Below are positions 7,006-55,922 of a DNA stretch of 64,000 nt, piece by piece. A program made the position numbers and the translations under genes. The DNA is from Neofusicoccum parvum (Eukaryota; Ascomycota; Dothideomycetes; Botryosphaeriales; Botryosphaeriaceae): assembly GCA_020912385.1 (NCBI GenBank), contig CP087216.1:806001-870000 (forward strand), read 5' to 3'. The notes under the pieces are model-generated. The model saw nothing but the letters and a program-made list of their open reading frames with translations. It did no database searches and was not told where the DNA came from. Within the stretch, counting starts at the first letter, position 1; the number at the start of each line of letters is the position of its first letter.

Positions 7006-9329
7006 TTAAGCCGTGAAGAACTTCTTGATGAACTTCATCGCAGCGGGAGCAACGCCCTCGGCGGGGGCAGCTTCAGCAATTCCAGCCTCAGCACCGGCAT
7101 CGGAGCCCTTGCTCTTACCCTCACCCTTTCCCTTGCCTTTGCCCTTATCGTCGTTGTTATCGCCGCCCGCATTAAGAACAATGACAACGTCGGCGCCGCC
7201 GTTGCCGCCGTCGTTTTGCTTCTGAGCTTCCGCGAGCTGGGCCTTGAGTTCCTCGACCTGCTTGGCCTGTTCAAGAGCTAGATCTTCGGCAGCCTTCTGG
7301 GCGTCCTGCGCGGCCTTGACTTGCTCGGCCGCTTGTGCTTCGGCTTGAGCCTTTGCATCGGCTTCGGCGGCGGCAGCGTCGGCGGCGGCCTGAGCTTCCT
7401 GTGCCTTCGCATCCGCAGCCGCCTGTTCTTCGGCAGCTTGAGCCTGCTCGGCAGCGGCAGCATCATCCGCTGCTTGCTGCTCTGCTGCAGCCTTCGTACA
7501 GTTAGTAACAAAAGTAGTGGGTTTGGATATGCCCGTCACATACCTTGGCCTCCTCAGCGGCCTTCGCATCAGCGACAGCCTGGTCGTAAGCAGCGGCCAT
7601 GGCTTCGGCCTGGGCCTTTGCGTCCTCAGCAGCCTTCATAGGTCAGTAACTGAGTCCACGGCTATAGATCAGTGCATGAAATACCTTGGCATCCGCAGCT
7701 GCCTGGTCCTCAGCAGCCTTAGCCTGCTCTGCCATCTGCTGCTCGGCAGCAGCCGTATCGGCGGCCGGCGTCTCAGCAGCGGCAGCAGGAGTCTCAGCAG
7801 CAGCAGCAGCAGCAGCGGGTGTCTCCACAGCAGCGGGAGTGGCCTTTAAACAATTAGCAACTAGCGGTGAGCTTTGGGAAACATCAGGACTTACAGCAGC
7901 ATCGGCGGCGGCGGGAGTCTCAGCAGCAGCCTTTTGAACAGTTAGTAAGGAACTACGATCTTGGAATACAAAGCAGGTTCTCAAAATGTTGCAACACGTG
8001 CATGTGCTCGTAGGCAGTTGAAGAATTCGTCCGGATACAAACGTGCAAGTAAAGCAGCGCCAAACTTATCCGGATGAATGCTTCAACTGCCCATGTGTGT
8101 ACTTGTTGCAACACTTCGCAAGCTAAACAAGTAAATTGGAGAGCTTACCGCGGCATCGGCGGCAGCAGGAGTCTCAGCAGCAGCCTTTTGAACAATTAGT
8201 GACAACTTGTAGGCTTTGGACGAGTCAAAACTTACCGCAGCATCAGCAGCAGCCGGAGTTTCAGCAGCAGCCTTTTGAACAATTAGTGACAACTTGTAGG
8301 CTTTGGACGAGTCAAAACTTACCGCAGCATCAGCAGCAGCCGGAGTTTCAGCAGCAGCCTTCAAGAAATTATCAGTAAAAGACTGTTGAGGTTCGGATGA
8401 ATCAAGAACTCACCGCAGCGTCGGCGGCCGCAGGCGTCTCTGCGGCGGCAGCCTCATGCTCAGCTGCAGCTTGCTGTAGAAGTATCAGCATCAAAATCAG
8501 CAAGTTTTAACATATCTAGAGACATACCTCGGCAGCTACTGCATCTTGCTGGGCCTGCGCTTCCTCTTGAGCCTTCGAATTGTTAGCAACGAATCAAGAA
8601 TTTGGACATCCCAGAGACAAACTTTTGCGTCCGCAGCAGCTTGTTCTTCGGCCTGCTTCTGCTGCTCTGCGGCCGCAGCATCCTGAGCTGCCTGTGCTTC
8701 TTCCTGAGCCTTCAGACAATCAGTATGTAATTCGGGTATTTATGTGCATCAATTACACACCTTTGCATCGGCGGCTGCCTGATCATCCTGGGCCTTTATA
8801 ATATGATCAGTGATGAGCTGCGAGGTGGAATTGATAGAAGAAACATACAGCTGCGTCGGCTGGTGCGGCTTCAGCTTCAGCAGGCGGTGCGGCGGCCTCT
8901 TCTCCCTTGGCCTTTGTAGAAATCTTCAGTGACCGGTCTTCGGTTTGTACTAGCAATTTCTTACCTTTTCGTCGGCTGGCGCAGCCTCAGCCTCTGCGGG
9001 AGCAGCCTCTGCCTCTGCAGGAGCAGCCTCTGCCTCTGCAGGAGCAGCTTCGGCTGGCGGCGCGGCCTCCGCCTCGGCCTTTGAATAGTCAGTGACAAGC
9101 TACAGGATTGGAAGAACTTGGAACACACCTTTGCAGCTTCAGCAGGCGGAGCAGCAGCCGCCTCATCCTCCTTCTTAGCAGCCTCGGCGGGAGGGGCCTG
9201 ACCAGCAGCCTCTTGCGCGGCAGCCGGAGCCGCCACAGCGCCCGCCTCGGCGCCAGCCGAGCTGGGGATGGCTGCGCCAGAAACGAGGGCGGCGGCGAGG
9301 AGAAGATTAGTAGCAGTTGAGAAGCGCAT
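7006..9329 (-). CDS. Secreted alanine/glutamate-rich repeat protein with 14 exons
   Basis: I do not recognise this protein. Exons (minus strand) are 9329-9129, 9078-8965, 8911-8849, 8793-8761, 8709-8623, 8572-8528, 8473-8414, 8358-8323, 8271-8236, 8184-8149, 7930-7895, 7843-7685, 7633-7544 and 7491-7006. They give 493 residues. All 13 introns are phase 0, and 12 of them are 50-55 nt. The intron at 8148-7931 is 218 nt and contains a MITE-like element. The N-terminus (MRFSTATNLLLAAALVSGAA) is a good signal peptide. The body is Ala, Glu, Gln and Pro repeats; four 12-residue exons read AAAETPAAADAA. Much of the body should be helical or coiled coil. The C-terminal exon ends in a Gly/Lys/Asp-rich segment. 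The start is fixed by the signal peptide and by a TATA-like box 118 bp upstream. A cell-surface or secreted structural protein is plausible, but function is unknown. Confidence 0.75.
7988..8114. repeat. MITE-like foldback element, copy 2, inside an intron
   Basis: This 127-bp element has inverted ends of about 48 bp: TGTTGCAACACGTGCATGTG on the left and, inverted, TGTTGCAACAAGTACACACA on the right. GGCAGTTGAAGAATTCGTCC is mirrored by GGATGAATGCTTCAACTGCC. It shares these blocks with the element at 1069-1190. It lies wholly within the 218-nt intron of the alanine-rich gene and leaves the splice sites intact. No clear target-site duplication is visible. Confidence 0.7.
8186..8359 (-). repeat. 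Perfect 87-bp tandem duplication of exon plus intron
   Basis: Bases 8186-8272 and 8273-8359 are identical over 87 bp. Each unit holds one 36-nt exon (12 codons, AAAETPAAADAA) and one 51-nt intron with donor GTAAGT, branch-like CACTAAT and acceptor AAAAG. The two neighbouring 12-codon exons are diverged versions of the same unit. Confidence 0.9.
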
Positions 9330-12410: not shown

Positions 12411-13110
12411 GACCACCTCGCTAAAGGGATCTAGTGGATGGGGGAAAGATTACCGAAAGGGAGAAGCCGAGTTCTTGGAGTGCTAGTTTGTGCAGTGCGG
12501 ACTCGTCCAATCAATTCGAATAAGTTAAATGAGCACGCCATCCAGGACACTGAATGGGTGTTGAAGAGGCGCCGCGGTCTAACTCTGTTACCTGACCAGC
12601 AGCCAAAGGGAATGATCTCAGGCTAGGAGTTTGACACAAAGGGATGATTTCAGTAACAGAGAACTATGTTACTTGCTGATACAGTCAGTGTATCTTGCTA
12701 TTATGTGAAGTCTCAGCCGTGGAAGTGGCAGGAGACATTTTTCTTCCTCTCTACACCGGTCACTTGCACAAAGAGTTTTATGAAGTAAACTTGATGGCAT
12801 TCATACGTAAGAAGACAGCTGAGATTCCGAGGACAACACAACAATGGTTGACCTTCCCGAACTGTTATTTTATATTCGGCTATCATCTAAGGAGCGAATC
12901 ATCCATCCAATGAACTTCTTTTCTACACGCCATCTGCAACGTGATGGAGAATCAGAGTATAGGTATCCTTCGGGCGTCACCAGAATAGGGTCTCAGGAAG
13001 GATCTATTATGGCTTTCATTAGTATGACTCCCGAGATAGAGGCTGGTAGCGGGACTCATGCTGGAAATCCTTACCTTAGATGTGCGCGCATCTCATCAGA
13101 CGAGACGAAC

Positions 13111-13827
13111 TCAGTTCGCAAGAGCGTCACGCTTCACCGTCTTGTGCGGGGGGCTGGCATCCCTCTTGACGGTCTTATGAGGCGGGCTCGCGTCCCTCTT
13201 GACGGTCTTGTGAGGCGGGCTAGCGTCCCTCTTCACCGTCTTGTGGGGAGGGCTGGCATCTCTCTTGATGGTCTTGTGGGGAGGGCTCGCCTCACGCTTC
13301 ACCGTCTTGTGAGGAGGGCTTGCCTCACGCTTGATGGTCTTGTGGGGCGGGCTGGGATCCGCCTCCCTCTTGACGGTCTTGTGAGGAGGGCTAGGATCCG
13401 CCTCCCTCTTGACGGTCTTGTGGGGAGGGCTGGCATCCCTCTTGACAGTCTTGTGAGGAGGACTGGCCTCACGCTTGACAGTCTTGTGAGGGGGACTGGC
13501 CTCACGCTTGGCAGTCTTGTGAGGGGGACTGGCCTCGCGCTTGATGGTCTTATGGGGCGGGCTTGCCTCACGCTTGACGGTCTTGTGAGGAGGGCTCGGG
13601 TCGGCTTCGCGCTTGACGGTCTTGTGAGGCGGGCTGGCTTCGCGCTTGATGGTCTTGTGTGGCGGGCTGCGCTTCTTCCAGGGCGCAAGGTTCTCAGCCT
13701 GGACAGCCACCGGCTCGGGCAGAGCATCCCGGGCGAGAAGGCCAGGCTCGGGGGCAATGGGTGGGATGGCCGCTGCGGATGCGGTGGCGGCCAAGATGGC
13801 GCTGGCGATGATGGCGGTGAACTTCAT
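13111..13827 (-). CDS. Kex2-processed repeat peptide precursor (KEP)
   Basis: A single exon encodes 238 residues. Residues 1-19 (MKFTAIIASAILAATASAA) form a signal peptide. After a pro-region of about 30 residues come 16 repeats ending in PPHKT(V/I/A)KR. Units read EASPPHKTV, DASPPHKTV or EADPSPPHKTV, each closed by Lys-Arg. This layout matches precursors cut by the Golgi protease Kex2, with Kex1 trimming KR and a Ste13-type dipeptidyl peptidase removing EA, DA or EA-DP. The predicted product is SPPHKTV/I; its Ser-Pro-Pro start should block further dipeptidyl cleavage. There is no Tyr in the core and no UstY-type oxidase nearby, unlike ustiloxin-type peptides. It does not look like a Cys/Trp-containing mating pheromone. 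Cleavage is inferred; the role (signal peptide, wall protein or effector) is unknown. Confidence 0.85.
   Translation of the reverse strand: MKFTAIIASAILAATASAAAIPPIAPEPGLLARDALPEPVAVQAENLAPWKKRSPPHKTIKREASPPHKTVKREADPSPPHKTVKREASPPHKTIKREASPPHKTAKREASPPHKTVKREASPPHKTVKRDASPPHKTVKREADPSPPHKTVKREADPSPPHKTIKREASPPHKTVKREASPPHKTIKRDASPPHKTVKRDASPPHKTVKRDASPPHKTVKRDASPPHKTVKRDALAN
13135..13670 (-). repeat. In-frame minisatellite encoding 16 peptide repeats
   Basis: Tandem units of mostly 33 bp, with three 39-bp units carrying an extra Asp-Pro pair, run through the coding sequence. Units vary at Glu/Asp and Val/Ile/Ala codons, so the array is old enough to have diverged. The four most C-terminal complete units share the DASPPHKTV protein sequence. 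Confidence 0.85.
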
Positions 13828-14966
13828 GGCGTTGATGAGGCCTTCAGAGTGGTTTGCAGATGACTGAGAAGTGAAGATGAAGCTGCTTGAGTCCGTTGTT
13901 CGGGGCTATGAGTGCTCTGCGCCTGTTCGTTTTATACTTGTCTGGCTGCACCCTTATCTCGAGCTCCCCGCAAGGACTGGGCCTCAGCTGATGATGTTCT
14001 CACCGATAGCCGCTCTCGCGACGCTCCACACACTGCCGGCTGGCTTGGTTCCATCCCGAATGCTCACCTGCGACACGAGGGAAGGCACGAGAGCGGTTAC
14101 CAAATGCGGTTACTGCGTCATGCAGTGGATGGCGGAGCGCCCGTGCGGATGCAAGCCGAAAACGGCCCCCATCGCGGCTGGATCCGCCACCGGCCTCTCT
14201 CAATCCTCTTCCTGCCTCTTTCGAATCGGCTACCAACTCACACACGTTGGTGTGGATCCTTTGGCGACTCAGTAGGAGCATGTCGGACGATACACTGCGT
14301 GTGCAAATATAGCACACGGGAACACAACCGCGGGCACTCTTGAGCGGCATGCGGCTTCACCGAGAACCGCCACGCTTCTCTCAAGATTGTCTGGCTTGCT
14401 GTAGCAACCAATCACCAAAGCGCTGCCAGTGTAAGCTGACGGGCCAGCGCGCCGTAGAACACGGACTGCGGTTGACAGTCACTTGCTGTGGGCCCCAGAT
14501 GGAGTGGCCCCTGGATGGAGCGGGCGGAGCATTGACCACGGTGTGGGGGCCGAACCAACAACAAGCTGCCAATTATCCCGGTGAAAAGGCTTGTCCAGCT
14601 CAAGCTGACCCACTGTTTCCATTCTGGGTATGACGACGCGGACAAGCCGTTTCGTGGCGTTATACAAGTTGCTTAATCGACAGGGTTGTGCGGACCGAAC
14701 CCATCCGCCGTGGACGTGATTTCGCGGGACAAGCACCTTTGTGGCGCTTTACAGGTCATCCGAAGGATTGCGCTTCACCGGTAGAATGCCGCGCTCACTT
14801 CGACACGACATCGCGTAATGCTGAGTGCGTATTGCACTTTACTCTCGGCCTGTCCGCGATACGAGTTCCTCGAACATCAGCGGAATCGGAAACGCAGCTT
14901 TATATCCGTCGGCTTTGATTCCTGCTCCTGACGAGCCGGTCTTCCTGAGTTTGACGTGCGAAGCAC
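13828..14966. other. Divergent promoter region between repeat-peptide and kinase genes
   Basis: This 1.1-kb spacer is shared by two genes transcribed away from each other. It contains the TATA box at 13930-13936 and a weaker TTTATATC about 65 bp before the kinase start. I see no coding frame that can be supported. Confidence 0.5.
13930..13936 (-). promoter_or_regulatory. TATA box of the repeat-peptide gene
   Basis: TATAAAA on the minus strand lies 103 bp upstream of the start codon at 13827. Together with the signal peptide it supports the start chosen. Confidence 0.55.
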
Positions 14967-15995
14967 ATGGCAATGGCGAAGTCTACGCTCAAGCTACTGC
15001 TTCCCCCAATCTTCATTTCGAGCCAGATAGCTCTCGCGTCCGCCGTCCCATGGCAATGCGCCCCCGGCGCATATAGCCTCCACAACTTCTATCCCAATGT
15101 CACGCACGGCACCCCAGATCCCGAAAAGGCCAACATTGGCGAAGGAAGCAGTGGCCGGGTCTTCGTCGATTTATCGGCTTCCCCCCGCGCAATCAAGCAC
15201 TTCATCCCCGAGTCGTCCGAAAGAGAGCTCGCTCTCCAAGAACAGTCCATCTACCACGAGTACTGGCTCGGACACGCCATGGACCACCCGAACATCGCTC
15301 GGTCACATGAGCTGTGGCATGAGGATGATGAATGGTACATGAGCATGGAACTCATCCCCTTCTCCCTGCTGGATCTGTTGGACTACGACGCCTACAACGA
15401 CGAGCCCTGGTCTTTCCTCTCGATGTCATGCTTGTTTTGGCAGATGCTGAACGCCGTCGCGCACGTCCACTCACTCGGCGTCGCGCACCGAGACCTCAAA
15501 GTGGAGAACTTCATGATCTCCCATGATGGCACGGTCAAGCTTATTGACTTTGGGAGCGCCTCGGTGTTCCGGGATCCCGTAACCGGCCACCATGTCCACC
15601 ACATGGAGAACAGGGTCGGCACTCTCATCACAATGCCGCCCGAGGCTGAGTCTGAGGAGTTTATTGATCTGGAGGCTGCAGATGTATGGGCTTTGGGGGT
15701 GATGTTTGTCAGGCTGTGGCTGGGAGTCTACCCCTGGCAGGAAGCGACGTTGGAAGATGCGGCGTTTGCAGAATATGTGAGAGAGTTGAATGAGGAAACT
15801 GGCGCTTGTGATTCGAGCATGGAAGACGATGACGTGTCCGGCGACACATTGATTTGTTCACTGCCGGACAGCGTGAGACCAGTGGTTGGTGGAATGCTTG
15901 CGCTGGACCCGGAGAAACGCATGGCGATTGATACCATCTTCACAAGTGCTTGGATGCAATTTGTCAGGAATGAAGTAGACGACTTTGGTAGATAG
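14967..15995 (+). CDS. Protein kinase with N-terminal signal peptide (predicted secretory-pathway kinase)
   Basis: A single exon encodes 342 residues. Residues 1-27 form a signal peptide: basic start, hydrophobic core LLLPPIFISSQIALA, and ASA before a likely cut site. The kinase fold follows with every key motif intact: GEGSSGRV at 58-65, Lys77 in AIK, HRDLKVEN at 174-181, DFG at 194-196, an APE-like PPE at 224-226, Asp239 in DVWALG, and Arg318. It therefore should be catalytically active. The HRDLKVEN and DFGSA region resembles fungal Npr/Hal-type Ser/Thr kinases, but those are cytosolic and much longer. An N-glycosylation site (NVT) lies at 44-46. The start at 14967 gives the signal peptide; no in-frame alternative upstream is needed. 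It is divergent from the repeat-peptide gene and convergent with the PKS gene. Substrate is unknown. Confidence 0.8.
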   Translation: MAMAKSTLKLLLPPIFISSQIALASAVPWQCAPGAYSLHNFYPNVTHGTPDPEKANIGEGSSGRVFVDLSASPRAIKHFIPESSERELALQEQSIYHEYWLGHAMDHPNIARSHELWHEDDEWYMSMELIPFSLLDLLDYDAYNDEPWSFLSMSCLFWQMLNAVAHVHSLGVAHRDLKVENFMISHDGTVKLIDFGSASVFRDPVTGHHVHHMENRVGTLITMPPEAESEEFIDLEAADVWALGVMFVRLWLGVYPWQEATLEDAAFAEYVRELNEETGACDSSMEDDDVSGDTLICSLPDSVRPVVGGMLALDPEKRMAIDTIFTSAWMQFVRNEVDDFGR

Positions 15996-16213: not shown

Positions 16214-19200
16214 TTACTTCTCAAATATAACCCCGGATTTCTCCAAAATCTGGCTCGACAAGTCGAGCAGACCCTCGACATGGAAGAGATCGGTCATTCT
16301 GAGCCTGGTGCGGAAGTCGGTCGCAACCCAGTTCATCAGCTCCATCATAGTGAGACTATCAAGACCAAGCTCGGCGGTGCTATTCGTGGCGCGTACGTCC
16401 TCGATGGGCACAAGCAGCAGCGCCGCCACCTTCTTGGTCACGGCCTCGAGGACAAGGTTGAGCGCCGCCTGCTTGTCGACGGCTCGGCGCAGCTCCGTGA
16501 ACAGTGAAGTCTCACCGCTGTCACCATTTGTCATGAATTGTTGTTCTTGCGCCTGGTTTTGCCCTGATGAAGATCCTGATCCCCTCAGACTCAGATTTGT
16601 CAGCCGTGCGTCGTCTGTGCTTGGCTGTATCTTTGCGTTGCTGCTGTCGCCGCCGAAGCCGATACCCATGATGCAGTTAGCTCCCACTTTGCCGTTGATT
16701 GCGGTAGTCAAGAGGGCAATCACGTCCGCTGCCGTCACAAACTCGCCCTCCAGGCCTCCGATACGGCGTAGTTGGGTCAGGTCAGCGCGTTCGGCGAGGT
16801 ATCCAGCATCAAGGACAAAACCCAAGGCAAGTGAGGTGGCGGGCAGGCCCTTTTGGACGCGGAATTGAGCAAGCCCGTCGAGATAGGTGTTGGCTGCCGA
16901 GTAGCCGATATGGCCTGGCATCCCGAGCACGCCGGCGGTGGAGGAGAATATGATGAAGAAGTCCAGGTCGGGGGCGTTGGTGAGTGCGCAGTGTAGGTTC
17001 CATGCACCGGTGATCTTGGACTCACTTGCGGATTTGAAGTCCTCGTAGGTGGTATTTTCGAATGGGGCACCCTGCGAGCCGAATCATCAGATAAACGAAC
17101 CTGACCAAACAGTAGGGATCATGTTTGTCACTAACCTTAGTTGAGACCATAGCGGCGTGGATAACACCATGGATTGGTCCGCCACTATTAGCGCACTCAT
17201 GAATTACTGAGTCTACCTGCGACTTGTTGGAGACGTCGCAGGCTTTGACTGCAACACGCGCTCCTGCTTCTTGGACGCGTTGGATCAACTTCTCGACCTC
17301 GTCGTTGACCTTCGTGCCTCGAGATAGTAAGAATATGTTGCGCGCTCCTAGCCCAACCATCCACTCGGTAATGATTCGACCTAAGCCTCCTGTGCCACCA
17401 ACGATGATGTAACAGCCATCAGGATGAAGTACAGGGGTGGCAGGTTTTGACGCCGTAGCCTGTACCGAGATCAGTGATGAAAAACAGAGGAGAAGTGTGC
17501 TTGAGGAAAACAAGAAACCTGAAAGCTGGGGGAACGGTTGAATACCTGGAATGTGTCGCCTTCCTTGTTGATGACTACGTTCTTGGCTGTGACGGTGCCG
17601 GATGACAGGCCACGGAGGGCGCTCGGCAGCTGAGAGAAGGGAATCACGGATAGTGTCGATGAGTCTGGACCGATGCGTTTCGATGCAACAAGCTCCATGA
17701 CACGGGACCATATGTCAGCCATGAGACGTGGCCGGCCTGCAGCAACGGCATCAATGGCAGCGTAGGCAAAAGAGCAGTTGCCGCGGGCGCCGATGGGAGG
17801 CATTGTCAACGTCCCTTTGGTGTCGCCAACCTGCACGAAGCGGCCGAACGGCGCGAGAAACTGCCATGCGGTCTGAACGAATTCGACATCGCCGGGAAGA
17901 GTGTTGACGACCAGGTCGACGTCTTGCGGGGTTTGGTCGTCGCGCGAGGTGAAGACCTCGGCGCCCACAGCGGCGGCGACTTGCACAACGGCCTGCCCAA
18001 GGCTTCCGTGGGCGTGCACGAGCACACGCTCGCCTTGGCGAAGGCGACCCTCTTCGACGGCAGCATAGTAGGCCTGAGTGAAGTCGGCGGGCAGCGCGGC
18101 GGCGACATCCAAGGACATGTCGTCGGGTATCTTGGCGGCGCTGGACGCGCGACACCGCGCAAACGAGCCGAACGCGTCGGCCGACAGACAACACACCCGC
18201 CCGCCGACAGCCAGTCCCTCCACCTCAGCGCCTATGCGTGTCACGGTGCCGCTACACTCGGTGCCCAGCTGGCATCCCGATGCGAGACTCGTCGCCGCTC
18301 TGGCGTCCTTCATCGTGACGCCCGTGGCCGCCACTCGGACCTCGATCTCGCTGTCTTGAAGCTCTCCAAGGTCGTCCGCATCATCCAGGTACAGCGTCTC
18401 GGGCGCACCCGGCCTCGCCATCACTAGCTTTGCGCGTCTTGCAGGATCGACACGCTGCTCAGATGGACCGCAGACTCCGGTGGCGGCGTGGCAGGCGCGC
18501 ATCACCGGCTCGTTGTCGACCAGCCGCGGCACCAACAGCATCCCATCCTCCTCCAGGTATTCCATGTCGGTCCTGCCACCACTGCTGCTGCCAATCCGTG
18601 CCGCCACTTCAGCCACCAGCGAAGCCTGCCCCTCGGCATCCTCTTCGTCGTCCTCATCCGGGTCCAGGTCCAGCGTGGCAACCTTCGTCCCCAGCTCGTA
18701 CCGCAGCGTCCTGGCGAACCCAGCGACAATGCTTCCATCCGGATTAGTCGCCTTCTTTTGCGCCCCCTTTGTTACCCACACTGCTTCGTCTGCTGTCAAC
18801 AACACCCGCTTCAGCTTCTCGAACTCGCTATTATCTGCCCTGGCCAGAAGTGAGCTGTCCAGCTCACATACCACCACCCCGCATCTGTTCTCAGGCTCAG
18901 CCTGTGCCAGAGTACATACTGACACGGCCAATTTCGCTCTGGCCATCTGATCTTTCACCTCGAACGCGAAGTCTTCCGTCCTGGGGTCGTTGTACACGAT
19001 GAGCCAGGGCTGACTGCTGCTTCCGGCTCTTGTGAACGCGTCCGCCAGCTGCCACGTCACCTTGTAGCAGCCACTCGTCGGTTCAGGCCATCTCACTGCC
19101 CCTGAGTTGGCAACGCTCATCTTGAGTCCATCCAACTCGATGCATGACTGCTCTCCTCCGCCGTGCCCCAGGCCAACGATGGTGAAGTCCGCGGGCACAG

Positions 19201-22200
19201 ACGCCGTCGAACCCGTCGAACCCGTCGATGCGACAATGTTCAGACGGTCGCCTGGTTTTCCAGGTATACGGCAGCTGACGTACATTTCCCTGACTGCCGT
19301 AGGAGCCCAAATATTATCTGGACCTCTCTGGGGTTCGGCGACCAGCAGAGGGCCAACGCATTGGAAGAGACTGTCTAGCGTAGTCGGATGCACCGCCAGC
19401 TCCGTCTCATACTGGTATGGCATTATCGCTCGCGTGTCCGAGACGCTTATCTCACCTGCCGCCTGCCCGTTGCCGTATCGGAGATTAAGCACGTTCTGGA
19501 ACGTCGGTCCGCGCTGGGGGGATACCCTGGCCCACTCCTGGTAGAACTTGCTTCTGTCTACAACGCGTTGGCACTCTTTGCTAACCTTCTCGAACCGTGC
19601 CGAAACGCCATTGCTGCTCTGGTGCCCCTTGCGGACGCCGACGAATCCGCAGCAGTGGTGAACCCAACCCTTCGTGTTGCTGTCCCAGGTCGAAATCTCG
19701 AACTCGTCCCAAGTCCCCGACATGGGCCGCAGCTTGGTCGCCATGTCGCATCGGACGCCTTCCTCCAGCACCAATGGCTCCAAAGCTCGCACCTCGCGGA
19801 GCAAGAAACCATCGAAGTCCACTCGCCGCGAAGTGGCGAGCTCTGCGGCAGCCTCAACTGCCGTGCTGATGAAGCCCGCGAAGGGGAATACGGCCGACTG
19901 AAGCCGATAGTCGCGGAGCCACGGCAGATCTTCCATTCGAAGAACGTTCTTCCACGTTGTCTCGCCGCCACTTAGTCCCTCCAATGGGCGACCGAGTAGG
20001 TCGTGGCGCACGAATTCTCCGCGCAGGCTCTCGTCAATCAGCCGCGAGTCGAGCCAGTACCTGGACCGAGACCAAGGGTATGGGCTTAGACCTTCAACCA
20101 GCCGAGGTGCTGTTTCGGTGGTTCCATCTGTCGCAGCGGGGAAGTTGACTTCACCAAACTTCAAGGCGACGCCCATGCTGTAAAGCTTTCCCGCCAGCTC
20201 AAGACTGGTACGCCGAGCATCCTTGCCACGCTCCAACATAGAAAAGAGTAGCGTTTGTTCAATCTGGACCGACTTCAGAATCTGCTTGGTTGGTCCCAGC
20301 AGTGTAGTCCGTGGTCCAATCTCCACGAAAGCATCCGGAGGGCTGTCCTTCGATAGCAGATCAAGTACGCCCTGTGAAAATCTGACAGGATACCTGGCAC
20401 TACTTGCCCAGTAAGACGGTTTAACCTTCGTACCGCTAATTTTACGGCCGTACATGGTTGAGTAAAACGCGGCCCTGTGGTTCTCCTTCGGCTGAGGCTC
20501 CAAGCCCTCGAGGTTCTTGTACAATTCCAGCACATGCTCCAGGAAAGGAGAATGGTAGGGAACATCGACATCAAGCCTCTTGTGCAAGATACGCTTTTCT
20601 CGCATGAGCACCTCGAGTTCTGCTAGCCCCGCCTCATCACCCGAGGCTGTGATCGACTTGGGCGAATTCTCACAGGCTACCACGACGGTTCCTGCCTTCA
20701 CTGCACTAAGAAGCGGCGATATCTCGTCGGCCCCCGCCATAATGGCTATCATGCCGCCCCTCAGGTCTGGCTGCTCTGTCCGGAGGGCTGCTGTAAACTG
20801 GCCACGGTAATATGCGGCGCGCGTCGCGCTCTCGAGAGACAGGATGCCGGCAGCAAAGGCGGCCGCGATCTCGCCGCTAGAGTGGCCCACGACGGCACAG
20901 GGCTCGACGCCCCACGACCTGAGCAAGACTACCAGGGCAATCTGCAGCGCGGTAGTGGCCGGCTGGCTGATTTCGGGCTGGTCGATGCGCGACTCGGCCC
21001 CGGCCGTGAACATCTGCTCCGCCAGCACGAAGTCCGCCCCGAGCTTCTCCAGGATCGCATCCGTCTCCCGGATCGCCTGGGCGAAGACGGGGTACCGGTA
21101 GAAGAGCTCGCGGCCCATGCCGAACCATTGGGAGCCTTGGCCGGGGAAAATGAAGGCTAGCCTCGGACTCCGCTGTCCGCACCTCACGCCGCCGCTGCTG
21201 GGCAGGGCTGTCGCGAGCTCCGATGTCGACGAGGCTACCCCCGCTGTTCTCCAAGATAGGTGCGACCGGCGCTGGCCGAGCGTGTAGGCTAGATCGCGAG
21301 CTGAGATTTGGTCGCTGCTCTGCAGGAACTGCACCAGTTGCTCTTTTCTTGCCGTGAAAGCGGCCTCGTCGTTTGCTGATAGCGCAAAGAGGAACGGGTT
21401 CGTAGTAGTGTCATCTTTGCTACCGTTATGCTCAACGAGCAGAGTGGGTTTGTTGGTAGGCGCCTGCTCCAGCACGCAGTGGGCGTTGGTGCCGCCGAAG
21501 CCGAAGTTGTTGACTGCTGCGTAGCGCTTTCCTTGTGGCCACGGAATCGAATTTACCGGAACCTTTTTGAGTCGGGCTTGGTCAGTAGATGGCTTTGGTA
21601 GTCGAAAAAGGAAAGTGGGTTAAAAAGGTAAGAATGAATGTAATATGGCTCAGTACCTCCATATTGCGGCTACGCAGCGGCGCCTTCTCGTTTTCTTGCT
21701 CGAACCCGACAGTCGGCGGCACGATACCTTTCTCCAACATCAGGGCGACTTTGATAACTGAAGGTATGCCACTGGCGGACTCCAGGTGGCCCACGTTCGA
21801 CTTGACCGATCCAAGAAGCAGCGGATTTTCGGCCGTCCGTCCGTTGCCAAAGACAGTGTGTATTGCTGATAGCTCCACAGGGTCTCCAACTCGCGTTCCG
21901 GGTGCGTGCGCCTCCACAAAGCCAACTTCCTCTGGTGATATGCTGGCCCGCGCGTACACCTGTTGCATCAGTTTTGCCTGGGAGGCCTCACTGGGTGTTG
22001 TGTAGCTAAGCTTTTGGCCGTCGTGATTCACACCAACGTCGGCAAGCACGCAGTGGATGCGGTCGTTGTCCCGCAACGCCTGATGTAGTGGCTTCAACAC
22101 CAGGCACCCGGCCCCTTCACCACGTGCGTAGCCCGAATCTGCCGCCTGGTCAAAGGCGGCAATCTTTCCCGAGGGATTCAACATCCTACATTCCGTTTGT

Positions 22201-23055
22201 AAGTCAGCATCGACCATCGCACCATGTTTCCTATCTGGGCAAATGCCTCCTCTTTTTTCCTCTGCTTAGAATCCTGGACGTACATCAAGTTTGACAGCAA
22301 CATCCACCTCCACGGTGTCAGATTCAGTGCGCAGCCCGCCACAATACACACCTCCGTCTCTCCAGACCGCAAGCTCTGCGCCGCCTGATGCATAGCCGAC
22401 AACGTAGACGAGCACGCCGTCTCGACCGTAACGCTAGGCCCCTTCAGGTCGAAGTGGTAGGAGATGCCGTTGGACAGCATGCAGGCGTTGCCCAGCGCGG
22501 CGCTCATGGGCGTGCTGCTGTGCACGTCGTTCATCTGCCCGAACGTGTAGTCGCACATGTTGTTCGTGGCGAAGACGCCGACATCCCGGCCCGCGATCTG
22601 CTCCTTCGGGATGCCAGCGTCCTCCAGCGCCTCGAAGGCGCATTCGAGCAGCAGCCTGTGCTGCGGACCCTGCACACGCTCGTCAGCACGCCTCTCCCAC
22701 CCTCTCTCCCCCCAGCACGAAGGACCGTCGACGAGGGCGTTTTTACCGTCGCAGCCGCCTCGGTCGCCCCCATCTTGAAGAAGCCCGCGTCGAACGTCGA
22801 CACGTCCTGGTCGACGAAGTAGCCGTGCCGCGTGTTGATGCAGTCCTTGCGGTCCGGGTTCGGGTGGTAGAAGGTGGCCGGGTTGAACCGGTCGGCGGGG
22901 AACTCTGTCCGTCCGTCGCGCGAGGACACCATCATGTCCCAGAAGTCGGGCAGGGAGGAGACCGCGCCGGGCATGCGGCAGGACATGCCTACGATGGCGA
23001 TGGGCGCGGGTGTGGGTGTGGGGGGAGGGGGCTCCTCCGCATTGATGCCGGGCAT
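16214..23055 (-). CDS. Highly reducing polyketide synthase (KS-AT-DH-ER-KR-ACP)
   Basis: Six exons (23055-22747, 22669-22284, 22185-21657, 21592-17546, 17459-17136, 17071-16214) encode 2150 residues. The KS (about 18-450) has active Cys in VETACSS and both His (EAHAPGT, KSNVGHLE). The AT (from about 550) has PGQGSQW and GHSSGE. The DH (about 935-1240) has the His of HDLLG and the Asp of TLDSLFQ. No C-methyltransferase domain is visible before the ER (about 1465-1755). The ER has a nucleotide loop HAHGSLGQ and is about 30 residues shorter than usual after GAEVF. The KR (about 1770-1960) has GGTGGLG and the Tyr of GYSAANTY. The ACP Ser is in LGLDSL (about 2104). There is no release domain, as is usual for this class. 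It should make a reduced, unmethylated chain; the product is unknown. It is divergent from a P450. Confidence 0.92.
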
Positions 23056-23992
23056 TTTGGAGGGAGTGGCGCTGGGAGGACTGGGATGGTGGTCGGATTA
23101 GGGCAGGCTAAGGATAGTGGTGTAAGGGAGGTATGAGCAAGGTGCGTAAATTCTGCTGCGAGGGTCTCCGAAGCTATTCACAGGCGCTTTTCTGGAGAGC
23201 TCTCCACACTCTTGGATCTTATATCTTCGAATAAGACCTCACGCTGCTCGAGCGCATTGGCAACACATCCCCCATTCTGGACACTTGTGACCATCAGGCC
23301 ATCTTACTCGCGTCGTACCCCATACGTGAAGATGGGTACCCCGAAAACAATGTTCGCGGGTTTACTCGCAGTCCTCTCGTTTACACACAGCTTTTGTGGA
23401 GCCCCAGCATTGAGATCTCCGCAATTCTTGGTGGGGCCCCAGGGTCTTGGCGGCTTCGCCCAAGTCGGGCGTCCAGTGCACGACTCGAGAGGACCTTGTT
23501 GTTTGGCTGCGGAGGACAGTGCCTGACTTCTGGGGAAAATACGAGGAAGGAGAGCCCGGGATTCTTTGGGTTTTGGTAGGTTTGCCGATAGGGTCGGGAG
23601 GATGATCTGACGTCAAAGTACGGCAACAACCGCAGCGGGACGGGAAAGAGCGTAAGGCGTACGGGAAGCCTTATAATTGGGCGTGACGACAAGGTCCCTT
23701 CTGCATGATTTGAAACTGCCCAAGGCGCCGTGCGAAAGATTTTCTGCCCAGAAATCCGAACACAGCAGGAGTAGGCATTGTCAGACTACGACAAGGCCGG
23801 ATCGCCGCGCGGAGCCCCGACGATGCGCTCAGGACCAGCGGCAAGACGGCTAGGATCTATACGATGGAGCGGTGTGATAAGAGCCCGGTGTCCAATCCGG
23901 GGCCGTGAGAAACTCTGTCCCGTTGCTTAGGTGAGTGAAGGCTCTTGGTCTCATCACAAGAACAGCAACTTCCAACAACACCCCAATCAGCC
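23056..23992. other. Shared divergent promoter of PKS and P450
   Basis: This 937-bp spacer lies between two head-to-head biosynthetic genes, an arrangement that often means shared regulation. A TTATAT motif lies near 23219 on the PKS side. I see no palindrome that I could assign to a known cluster regulator. Confidence 0.5.
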
Positions 23993-42599: not shown

Positions 42600-44683
42600 T
42601 CTGTTGACCTACTGAAGGTAAGAATATTAGTATCATCTACGAAGCCTAAGGGGAAGGTGCTTCCCCTTTTTAGCTCCGTAAGGAGGTTGGAGGCAAAGTA
42701 GAGGTAGAGGATTGGTGAGAGCGAGGATCCCTAGGGGATCCCAGTAGGGGTTGAGATCTGTGGGCTGATATAGCCGCTAAAGGAGAGCTGAGTGAACCTG
42801 TCCTATAGGAAGGAGTGTGTGAATCTTTCTACCCAGCTTAGTAGCCTTGCTGCTCTCATGTTGTAGAGGAGCCGCTTATAGGAGACATGGTCATAGGCTC
42901 CTGAGATGTCCAAGCTGAGCACTGAGGCTATAAGGCCTAGATCCTGTGCCCAGATAGTGTGTATCTGTTTAGTAAGGAGTTCGAGAGTTATGGCTGCTGA
43001 TCTATTCCTTCTAGCTCTCATCTGGAAGTCTGGGAGTAGTCTGTGTGTCTCAGTTGCCTAGGAGATTCTATCTGCTACAATCCTCTCAAGCAGTTTCCCC
43101 AGCGTGTTAATTAGTGCGATTGGTCTGAAGGACTTAGCCTTAGTGTAGTCGTCCCTTTGTGGCTTTCTGAGTACTATAGTGATGGAGCACTTGAACTGTC
43201 TAGGGTGATAGGAGAGTACTAGGCACTGTTGGAATAACCTTATAATGGGTTTGCTTAGTACCTGGGCGCACTGCTGTAGGATCCTGTTGATAATCCTGTC
43301 TGGCCTAGGAGCTTTGTCTGGGGAGAGCCTCTTAATAGTGTATAGGACCTGCTCCTCGGTAAGGTCCTGTGGTATTTCTACTGGTGCTGGGTATGTAAAT
43401 CCAGCTAGGTCTGAGAGGTTGGCATCCTTTGGAGTGGGGAAAAACTGGTTCCTGATGATTTCTGTCTTGGACAGGGTATCATAGTGTAACTGCCCATCTG
43501 AGTCCCTTAGGGGGGGAAACTGGGGTGGAGCTGGTGGCTCTAGTGCCCTTGTTCTTGCCCACTTTAATAGCTTCCAGACTGCGCTTGAATCTGAGGTGAT
43601 ATTAGCTACCATTGTGCGCCATGCCTTAGTCCTATCCTTTCTGATTTGCCTCTTTTTACTGTTGGCTATAGTCTAGTAGGTGATCCAGTCCTCCTCTCTT
43701 CCTGTAGTAGTCCACTTCCTCCTAGCACCTCTGGCTTGTTGAACTAGTATGGAGCTTTCCTTTGTCCACTGCATAGAAGCCCAGGGTGATGGCCTTGTAG
43801 TAGGGATAGTATCTCGGATGGTGTCTTGGATGATCTTCTAGAGCTGTTCAGTAAAGTGGTTTAAGTTCTCTACTGTTGCTAATGGGAGGCCCTCTAGGCC
43901 TTGGATCCTGAGCTGGAGCGTCCTGTTGACCTTTTCCCAGTCCGCTTTCTTCCACTGAGGTCTAGGGGGTGGTTGGGTTACTAGGGTGGGGGCGGTGTCA
44001 AACGTGGTGAGGATGAGTAGGTGGTCAGAGGAGGATTCAAGCTCTAGGGGGATTCTACAATGTAAGATTCTCTCTTCCAGCCAGTGAGAGGTGAAGATAA
44101 GGTCTAAGGTGCTTTTACTATTCTTAGTTCTTCTGGTAATAGTTCCCCTGGGTAGCGTAAGGTTGAGGTTGGCTGTTGTAGCTATTCCAATCAGGCTGTC
44201 TGCAAGGCTGTGGTGTGTGGGAGAGGTGATGCCTCCCTAGAGGGGGTGATGTAGGTTGAAGTCTCCGAGGAGGATATGTTCTCCTTGCCTGCTAAGGGCT
44301 CCTGGAAGGAGGGAGAGCGTTTCTAGGGAGGTGCTGGTGTAGGAGAGTGGTACTGGGTTGTAGTAGTTATGTATATGGATGCTACGTGACTTGGTGATAA
44401 TAGTGAGGGTAATGAGGTCCGAGGAGTGTATAGTTTCCTACTATGATTCTGGAGCCAGAGCCTTGCTTATAAGGAAGTAGGTTCTCGCCTCGCCCTCCTA
44501 GGGGAAGACTATATGGTAAGCTAGGTGTCTTGCTGTGGTTTTGATCTTTGGATTCCTCCAGGGTTCCTGGAGAGCTAGGATGTGGTGGGTTTTTGGGTCT
44601 AGCTCCTTGAAGAGGGGAAGCATAACTTTATCCTTGCTCTTATTTACGTTGTACTGTAGGATAGAGAGTGTATTTGTCTCCAT
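42600..44683 (-). pseudogene. LINE ORF2 (endonuclease and reverse transcriptase), disrupted
   Basis: The frame starts at 44683 with SILQYNVNKSKDKV and LALQEPW, the opening of an apurinic-type endonuclease, and is then broken by repeated TAG codons. The longest readable reverse transcriptase pieces are 43612-43058 (KAPRPDRIINRIL, RPIALINTLGKLLE) and 43021-42803 (SLDISGAYDHV). FVDD follows near 42635. The pieces are collinear and mostly in one frame, so stop codons rather than large deletions inactivate it. Sequence further toward 41100 should carry the C-terminal region, where I could not define a domain. Confidence 0.8.
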
Positions 44684-45114
44684 TATTGGGTTTTATTCAT
44701 TACTATGTCAGGCTACGTGGGGTTGGGTGTGCTATCTTAAGTAGTAGGAGTGGTTTCCCTAGGGTTTCCTCCATCCGCATGTTAGGAGCTGCGTAGTCCA
44801 AAGCTAGTGAAGGTTAGCTGACTAGGTGGAGGGGGTCTGCTAAGGTCCCTTGGCCTGCCTGGGCCTCTCTTAGGCTCCTCCTCCCTTGGTCTCTTTCTAG
44901 ACTTTGCAAGGGTCCAGCCTTCCTATGCCTACTGTTGAGTAGCCTGGGGCCTCTCTCTATATCCTCCTGGGTTTGTAAGCCGGGCCTGAGTAGCCCTGGT
45001 CTGGTTTGCCTTGCGGGTGGGGCAGGAGTTACTCTATACAGTGTGCTTTTAGTTGTAGTTAGCACACTGGGTTTCCTCCTTGTTATAGTCTCTGGTGTTA
45101 TAACTGCTAGCACA

Positions 45115-46017
45115 CTAGCCATACCTAGGCTCCTTCCTACAGTGCTTTGCTATGTGTCCATAGGCCTGGCAGTTGTAGCACTGGGTAACTGTAAACGCAG
45201 GGCTATAAAACTCTGCAGTATGGAGGGAGAAGTTATAGAGCACTCCCTTTTTAATAAGCTGGTTGGCTGCCTCTGGGTTAGTGGTGCTAAGGATTACTGC
45301 TAAGTGTGTCTTCCCTTTAGGTTGCTTCTTCTTTAGCCAGGCCAGCTTGGCGATCTGCAGGTTAGGGTGTAGTGTCCTATTCTGCTCCTGGAGGGTGCTG
45401 GCAGCCTGTGGCTCAGCAGGATCAATTCCCTTGAGGGGGACATTGTGTACTAGGACTGAGTACAGCTGCTGATTTGGTCGGATCTCCTGGCCTAGCCCAG
45501 CTATCCACTCCTGGTCTCCGAGTAGGTCTGCCCTGGTTTGTGTATCAGGCACAAAGATCCTAATATCCCCACTGGGGAGCTTCCTTGCAGCAAGAACCTT
45601 CTTACAGGCAGGATTCTTGCCCGCCTGGATTGTCTGGACAATGGCCTGGTTTGAGAGTAGGGCAACAGCCTCCCTAGTGGCTGGTTCAGAGAGGTGCAGG
45701 GTGAGTTCAGTGGTGATGGGGGGTGTAGAGGCTTTTAGGGGGGACCGGGCTACAATCTGTGACCATTTAGGTATAGCAGGCTGTAGTGGCTGGTGTACTG
45801 CCTTCTTCACCTGCCTGATCTCATCCAGGATGTCCTTGAGGTCTGGTTCCTTGGCCTCGGCCCTTTGGATAGTAGTAGTGTAGTCCTGGAAGATTGTCTT
45901 GGCAATCCTGAAAAAATTTTCCAGTTGGGGAGAGAGAGCTGGAAGGTCACCACCTAGCGTCTGTAAGGCTTGGTTGAGGTTGTCTAGTGTCTTGATGGCT
46001 CTATTGATGTATTCCAC
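45115..46017 (-). CDS. LINE ORF1 (gag-like, zinc knuckle)
   Basis: An intact frame encodes 300 residues. The N-terminal half is helical and Gln/Leu-rich, followed by a Pro-rich stretch with KWSQIVARSP. The C-terminus has one CCHC zinc knuckle, CYNCQAYGHIAKHC, as in gag-like proteins of fungal LINEs that bind the element RNA. The frame ends at 45115, shortly after the knuckle. Some LINE ORF1 proteins carry more than one knuckle, so this one may be truncated by a point mutation. Confidence 0.8.
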   Translation of the reverse strand: MEYINRAIKTLDNLNQALQTLGGDLPALSPQLENFFRIAKTIFQDYTTTIQRAEAKEPDLKDILDEIRQVKKAVHQPLQPAIPKWSQIVARSPLKASTPPITTELTLHLSEPATREAVALLSNQAIVQTIQAGKNPACKKVLAARKLPSGDIRIFVPDTQTRADLLGDQEWIAGLGQEIRPNQQLYSVLVHNVPLKGIDPAEPQAASTLQEQNRTLHPNLQIAKLAWLKKKQPKGKTHLAVILSTTNPEAANQLIKKGVLYNFSLHTAEFYSPAFTVTQCYNCQAYGHIAKHCRKEPRYG

Positions 46018-46240
46018 ACTGGTTTGAGGTCCTCCATTAGTCTTAGGAAGGTGTTGTGGGTGATTATTGGGGGTGGTCTAGGAGAGGTTTCCTCCCCCTT
46101 CCTGGTCCTCTCCTTCCACCACGGCGCTGCTGCAGCTATTAGGAGTGCTGCTATAAGGTTTGTGAGGTCTAGGAGAGTTCCTAGGGCCCTCTCCTATTGC
46201 CGTAGCTTGAGGTTGATTTTTTGGTGAGGTTATGTTTTTT

Positions 46241-46826: not shown

Positions 46827-48020
46827 TGCTTAGGGGGGTGTTGGCTTCCGAAGCTTAACATCGAGCCTGGAAATCACAGCCTCTGGATCGAGTGGAACCA
46901 ATCCTGCGCCTCGGAATCCACCTGTAATGTTTTGCTTTGTGATTACGGCTTCGAATGCCGCTTTAAATGTAGGTAGAAACTCAAGCTTTATGATGTAGTT
47001 AATGTGGGATCGCATTAGCTCTTTAACCTGCTTTCCATACGCCTTCTTAAGAGGCGCAAAACAGCCTACATCAAGTAGCTGAAGAAGGTGAGATGAATGT
47101 GCAGGCATATAAAGCGTAACGATTTTGTGCTCCTGGTAAAACGCGTCGAAATCAGCCGAATGGTGGCTCCCATGGCCATTAAGGACTAGAAGTCGCCATG
47201 CTCTAGTTGTACGCTCCTTAGTGTGCTTTTTAAAGTGTTGCAGCCACTATAGACCGAGCTCGTTTATCGTCCAGCCATTTTCGCTTAATGCGATAGTCTA
47301 ATCGCGTGGAATATCATCGCTGTACCAAGCAGAGAGGTGGTGTTGGCCCTTAAAGATTATGAATGGCGGAATCGCCCAGCCCTTAGTATTAACTCCCTGG
47401 ATCACCGTAGCCCACTCACGGTTGCCTGGTTAAACTGATTTAGGTCGGGCACGTCGTTCAGATGCTGTAACAACTACTCCGGCTGTAATTATACCCATAA
47501 GGAAGCTAGCTTCGTCGAAGTTGTACATGTCTGCATTTACAATCCCATACTTCGTAATAGTGTTTCGGACGAGCTCGAACCACTACGTGAGAAGCTCTAG
47601 GTCTTCGCATTTCGCTCTTTGGTAGTCGTACGTGCGGTTCAGTCGTGTTTTCAGCTCGGGAGTCCGGTTCACAAAGTTGGAGGCCCATTTAACACCAACC
47701 GTGCCTCCAGCGCGATCAGCAAGCAGTTTATTGGCCATATCTTCAACAGCGCTTAAGCGGGGCGGAAATCCTCGTGAATCCAGGTCAAGAATATGTTGGA
47801 CAATAATAGATTCTTCAAGTGGGTTAAGTTTTCGAGAGTTTGGTGTGCAATCGCGTCGTAAATGCGTGCCGTTCATTCGTCTGGCGAGCGTACTATAGTG
47901 GATGGAATACGCTTGCGCAGCTGCTCGAATGCTCCGAAATTGGCCTTGGTTGAATGATTGGATAGCAAGGTTTATTCTTGCTTCATGATCAAGTGGTGGA
48001 ACATCGCTTGGTTGAGGCAT
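46827..48020 (-). pseudogene. pogo-type transposase with broken DDE domain
   Basis: The frame opens at 48020 (MPQPSDVPPLDHEARINLAI) with a psq-type helix-turn-helix, then a CENP-B-type DNA-binding region up to about 47600. A TAG stop follows at 47583 (after LELLT), and the DDE part continues in the same reading direction: YNFDEASF carries the first Asp, near 47510. The second acidic motif reads VLNGHGSH (about 47190), where this family has Asp in place of Asn. The third Asp is in LLDVGCF near 47070. A further TAA lies near 47430. Stops and the Asp to Asn change all fit C to T transitions at CpA on one strand or the other. Confidence 0.85.
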
Positions 48021-48058
48021 GGTAGTTTGTTGATGGTTGACGCGTTACGACGCGTGCG

Positions 48059-55893: not shown

Positions 55894-55922
55894 GCGTGCA
55901 GCGTGCAGCGTGCAGCGTGCAG
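55894..55922 (+). repeat. Short tandem repeat (7 bp x 4)
   Basis: GCGTGCA is repeated about four times without interruption in the RasGEF upstream region. No function is suggested. Confidence 0.7.

Follow-up and report, generated by a model that had tools for sequence, protein, structure and literature searches.

A sixteen-unit SPPHKT precursor in Neofusicoccum parvum, a probable source of Kex2-released extracellular peptides

Results

A sixteen-unit precursor gene in the window

The window, by which we mean the whole 64,000-nucleotide stretch of DNA that was analysed, comes from Neofusicoccum parvum, a plant pathogen (PMC9456026), and contains a gene for a precursor of SPPHKT peptides whose parts are collected in Table 1. 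An earlier note on this DNA had described a sixteen-unit precursor here, and the intact minus-strand frame, in which we count sixteen SPPHKT-x-KR units, bears this out. The N-terminus of the precursor is hydrophobic, as judged by a hydropathy scan. KR directly follows the core in 16 of the 16 units, as that note had said, and position x is mostly V (11 units), otherwise I (4 units) or A (1 unit). The note had further placed a spacer made of X-Ala or X-Pro pairs in every unit; this is true of 15 of the 16, where the spacer is EA (7 units), DA (5), or EADP (3), and untrue of the first, which has no spacer and stands directly after WKKR. The letters agree with the note that the core lacks Tyr, Cys, and Trp.

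Table 1. Parts of the SPPHKT precursor gene, in positions of the window
Feature	Positions	Strand	Basis or remark
KEP gene, 238-residue precursor of SPPHKT(V/I/A) peptides	13111..13827	-	one intact open frame, ATG at 13827 to stop
N-terminus resembling a signal peptide, residues 1-18 with approximate end	13774..13827	-	hydropathy scan and leader alignment with P0001
Pro-region, ends WKKR; border with signal peptide approximate	13669..13773	-	
Array of 16 SPPHKT-x-KR units and 15 EA/DA/EADP spacers	13129..13668	-	
DALAN, the C-terminal tail that follows the last KR, with the stop codon	13111..13128	-	
TATA-like box TATAAA	13931..13936	-	first base 109 bases upstream of ATG

As a DNA repeat, the array is seen by TRF at a period of 33 (15.8 copies) and at a period of 243 (2.0 copies). 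Two other long frames lie over it, one of 339 residues in antisense (12844-13863) and one of 152 residues on the same strand (13299-13757), presumably because the unit lengths are multiples of three. When the 44 Mb genome (43,992,428 bases in 18 contigs) was searched with the pattern PPHKTxKR, all 16 matches fell in this gene and the reversed control pattern gave 0, and a protein search of the genome likewise led to this one place only. Pfam held no usable match to the precursor, the single match being to TP1 with an E value of 0.13, under its cut-off; solved structures gave no match; and the pheromone-response-like element TGAAAC was not found in 400 bases of the promoter.

Neighboring genes and repeats

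The divergent neighbor of the precursor gene, at 14967-15995 on the plus strand, is 99% identical to a Neofusicoccum parvum kinase-like protein and appears to be an intact protein kinase with HRDLKVEN and DFG motifs. Its N-terminus is hydrophobic, and after it come PWQC and four Cys; these Cys do not vary across 12 aligned sequences, namely the window copy, its near-identical counterpart from N. parvum, and 10 more taken from the 126 found. Going by these letters, the N-terminus and the Cys look as if the kinase might work in the secretory pathway or outside the cell. Bipolaris and Decorospora are among the named organisms with close relatives of this kinase.

Further along, at 16217-23097 on the minus strand, lies a reducing polyketide synthase in pieces, its KS, AT, DH, ER-like, KR, and ACP domains spread over several frames. 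We considered a biosynthetic cluster on account of this nearby synthase and set the idea aside, as nothing links the polyketide synthase to the SPPHKT peptide. The window also holds possible LINE-like remains in separate frames (43061-46077, minus strand), of which an endonuclease piece scored above its cut-off and a zinc knuckle and a reverse-transcriptase start scored below theirs, and the stretch from 41 to 46 kb has a TpA/ApT ratio of 1.3 to 1.7, as RIP might leave. At 46833-48044 (minus strand), a piece of a DDE_1 transposase lies with a DNA-binding piece of the Tc5/Psq type, perhaps from a pogo/Fot1-like DNA transposon. There is an 87-base tandem repeat at 8144-8361 (2.5 copies, 96% matches) with CAG-rich arrays close by at 7759-7834, and a perfect 7-base tandem repeat of GCGTGCA at 55894-55922 (4.1 copies).

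The array is under selection as coding sequence

All 16 SPPHKT units are distinct as DNA, yet they encode only 3 peptides. Over the 120 pairs of 9-codon units in the coding frame, pS is 0.561, pN is 0.053, and dN/dS is 0.053, with a dS between units of about 1.0, and these values are to be read with the caution that the pairs are not independent and that dS is no clock here, because units of an array exchange sequence. The pN/pS ratio is 0.09 in the coding frame, compared with 0.35, 0.97, 3.24, 8.19, and 45.47 when the identical letters are read in the other five frames, and from this we conclude that the array is selected coding sequence. Pairwise differences among the units number 111, 15, and 417 at the first, second, and third codon positions, and those at the first position are confined to two codons, namely the Arg codon, with synonymous CGN/AGR switches, and the V/I/A position. 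The Arg of KR is unchanged while its codon varies among CGT, AGG, CGC, and AGA.

If the precursor were a pseudogene or a frame left open by chance in repetitive DNA, one could point to the multiple-of-three repeat unit, which keeps several frames open, and to the two long frames that overlap the array, but the gap in pN/pS between the coding frame and the others, the TATA-like box, and the similar leader of the relative described below all speak against such an origin, which we find scarcely credible. The SPPHKT precursor is real, well-formed, single-copy, and selected.

A metagenomic relative keeps the KR sites

P0001 is a metagenomic relative of 135 residues, encoded on a 948-base JGI metagenome contig, and contains four SPPHKTIKR units with KREA spacers and then SPLHKTV at its end. 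The earlier note had made conservation of the KR sites in homologues a test of its reading, and in this one relative KR stands after 4 of the 4 SPPHKT cores. Its first unit is also unspaced, but it is preceded by a single Arg (LAVR) and not by KR. The leaders of the two proteins align without gaps over 33 residues with a score of 54, which was reached by 0 of 500 shuffles; since signal peptides share composition, we take this likeness as support and not as proof.

Fungal walls contain secreted tandem-repeat proteins, and the whole repeat protein might on this ground be the functional unit, for example in the cell wall, with its KR sites incidental. The presence of KR after every SPPHKT core in both proteins, and spacers that suit Ste13-type removal, argue against this, and we hold it to be very unlikely.

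In the protein databases, where one search scored the best 7992 candidates, P0001 was the one relative with the SPPHKT core, and wider conservation therefore rests on the published survey discussed below. P0002 from Boothiomyces (E value of 8.3e-7, 42% identity over 56%) has spacers of the KREAE type as well, but its cores differ and it was not assigned to the SPPHKT family; P0003, with an E value of 1.0, was set aside as also outside it. Pattern matches on bacterial or archaeal contigs (39) and on viral contigs (2) were confirmed by tblastn in 0 cases.

The SPPHKT core is already in print

A full-text literature search for SPPHKT had a sole match, Le Marquer et al. 2019 (PMC6339444), whose main text names SPPHKT as one of the newly reported KEP cores conserved in the Pezizomycotina; of the 11 other full-text matches to PPHKT, ten were, by title, on HKT transporters or salt or salt-stress topics, and one was on flax fibre. 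The survey, as its main text describes, retained peptides found in at least 4 species and beyond one genus. The earlier note had called this an undescribed family, and that claim falls: the precursor is of a known kind, with its core motif already printed in the main text of PMC6339444. The likeness to the SPPHKT-type KEPs of that survey, judged from the main-text core alone, lies in an identical core and in a repeat precursor of the Kex2 type that is predicted to be secreted, and no difference was seen. Neofusicoccum is not named in the main text of PMC6339444, 'SPPH' is absent from the main texts of Umemura 2020 (PMC7329392) and of a Trichoderma RiPP paper (PMC7099791), and a full-text literature search for Neofusicoccum and KEX2 together gave no match.

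A separate, probable alpha-pheromone precursor in the same genome

The ascomycete alpha-pheromone precursors, such as yeast alpha-factor and ppg1, resemble the SPPHKT precursor in having a signal-like leader, multi-copy KR-separated units, and X-Ala/X-Pro spacers. We built the pattern WCxxxG[QE]xC from known pheromone sequences, and it has 20 matches in the genome, compared with 8 for the reversed control, with 5 of the 20 lying within 300 bases on contig C16. The frame there carries five copies of WCRWKGQPCSK and is a canonical-looking, ppg1-like alpha-pheromone precursor, in which X-Ala/X-Pro pairs can account for the entire spacer from KR to core in 5 of 5 cases. We infer from these letters that this is probably a working alpha-pheromone gene. 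Further Cys-pair stretches lie near KR at the alpha-pheromone locus (L066, 1853-2740, minus strand of C16), namely FCGWRGNCAV, CNEPGEACYQV, and one with CGDNAEC. The leaders of the C16 and SPPHKT precursors aligned with a score of 33, for which there was no shuffle control, and they were not taken as related. Ste2 has one match in the genome, at 1.1e-92, with one stop codon within the matched stretch, where an intron is possible.

Could the SPPHKT peptide be another mating pheromone of the alpha type, one that Ste2 or a paralogue would read? Its precursor shares the architecture and spacers of alpha-pheromone precursors as the main text of PMC6339444 presents them, with Ste13-type spacers after KR in 15 of 16 units, and a Ste2 match is present. 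But the core is not of the two-Cys type and has neither the Cys nor the Trp of WCRWKGQPCSK, the five-copy precursor on C16 already fits the mating role, and the only Ste2 match has an internal stop codon, so that a second mating pheromone seems to us quite improbable. The main text of PMC6339444 does describe an alpha-pheromone core of another kind in the Pleosporales, without the two-Cys WCxxxG[QE]xC-like type. With a separate precursor on C16, the SPPHKT precursor is probably not that of the mating alpha-pheromone, and the earlier note, which had argued against a canonical mating pheromone, was most likely right. The alpha-pheromone processing route appears to serve the SPPHKT precursor as well. 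Pheromone-like processing signs on a non-pheromone peptide have a parallel in the main text of PMC6339444, where Ste13 signatures are given for KEPs from Basidiomycota and from Rhizophagus irregularis that do not count as alpha-pheromones in the usual meaning of the term; the basidiomycete KEPs belong to a different fungal phylum and are likened to the SPPHKT precursor by their processing signs.

The listed UstYa matches lie far from the precursor gene

Dikaritin precursors, of the ustiloxin and phomopsin kind, are also multi-copy and Kex2-type, as the main text of PMC6339444 states for ustiloxin, and the genome has at least 23 UstYa matches, so one might suppose that the SPPHKT product is a modified cyclic RiPP of that kind. 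Among the UstYa matches listed, however, 0 fall in the window and, on contig C11, which carries the gene, the closest one lies at a distance of about 730 kb; the core, moreover, has no Tyr. The lack of a listed UstYa near the gene makes a dikaritin unlikely, and we rate this reading as extremely improbable, in agreement with the earlier note.

Candidate enzymes for the proposed processing route

Two marks of a KEP are found here, repeated near-identical peptides at dibasic sites (all 16) and a Kex2 homologue in the same organism. The genome has one convertase P-domain match; of the solved structures it is yeast Kexin that its frame resembles most (7.8e-175), and this frame has a hydrophobic segment near its C-terminus. 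It also has two genes for DPP4/Ste13-family aminopeptidases; the first, 909 residues long in an intact frame and hydrophobic in a segment at its N-terminus, we take to be a Ste13/DapB-type enzyme, and the second is in two frames with a signal-like start. S10 carboxypeptidases gave 38 matches, of which many are pieces that belong to one gene, and a Kex1 was not singled out.

Discussion

Secretion, cleavage, trimming, and a signaling role of the SPPHKT peptides are what we infer from these parts. The precursor would enter the secretory pathway, where a Kex2-type protease would cleave after each Lys-Arg, a Kex1-type carboxypeptidase would remove the Lys-Arg, and a Ste13/DPP-type aminopeptidase would take off EA, DA, or EA-DP, giving linear SPPHKTV and SPPHKTI in many copies and one SPPHKTA. 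The calculated [M+H]+ values are 765.425 for SPPHKTV and 779.441 for SPPHKTI and, with the spacer still in place, 965.505 for EASPPHKTV and 951.489 for DASPPHKTV. Ste13-type dipeptidyl peptidases are not known to cut before Pro, and hence trimming would end at Ser-Pro-Pro. The first unit starts at Ser without a spacer both here and in P0001, which suggests that Ser is the mature N-terminus, and spacers of 0, 2, or 4 residues beside a constant core are as expected if the spacers are discarded. The peptides would then signal outside the cell, from hypha to hypha or to the plant, apart from the alpha mating pheromone.

In our view the SPPHKT precursor is likely a KEP that releases linear SPPHKTV and SPPHKTI to signal outside the cell, either to the fungus itself or to its host, as read from the sequence. 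These peptides are short, basic, and polar, properties that would favor a diffusible signal over a surfactant or a structural peptide. A signaling role is not assured, given that KEP knockouts in a mushroom were reported to have no phenotype in axenic culture (PMC9769878). We regard as rather doubtful the wider proposal that SPPHKTV/I is a second, non-mating signal of pheromone style, which would use the full Kex2/Kex1/Ste13 route, have its own fungal or plant receptor, and be kept across distant Pezizomycotina. A bolder addition to that proposal is that the neighboring kinase would be co-expressed with the precursor and would phosphorylate Ser or Thr of the peptide.

The core has stayed constant over 16 copies despite wide synonymous divergence and is published in the Pezizomycotina, and a function is therefore likely. 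The locus gives exact predicted peptide products and a single-gene target, and since a probable alpha-pheromone gene is identified in the same genome, pheromone and non-pheromone roles would be separable by experiment.
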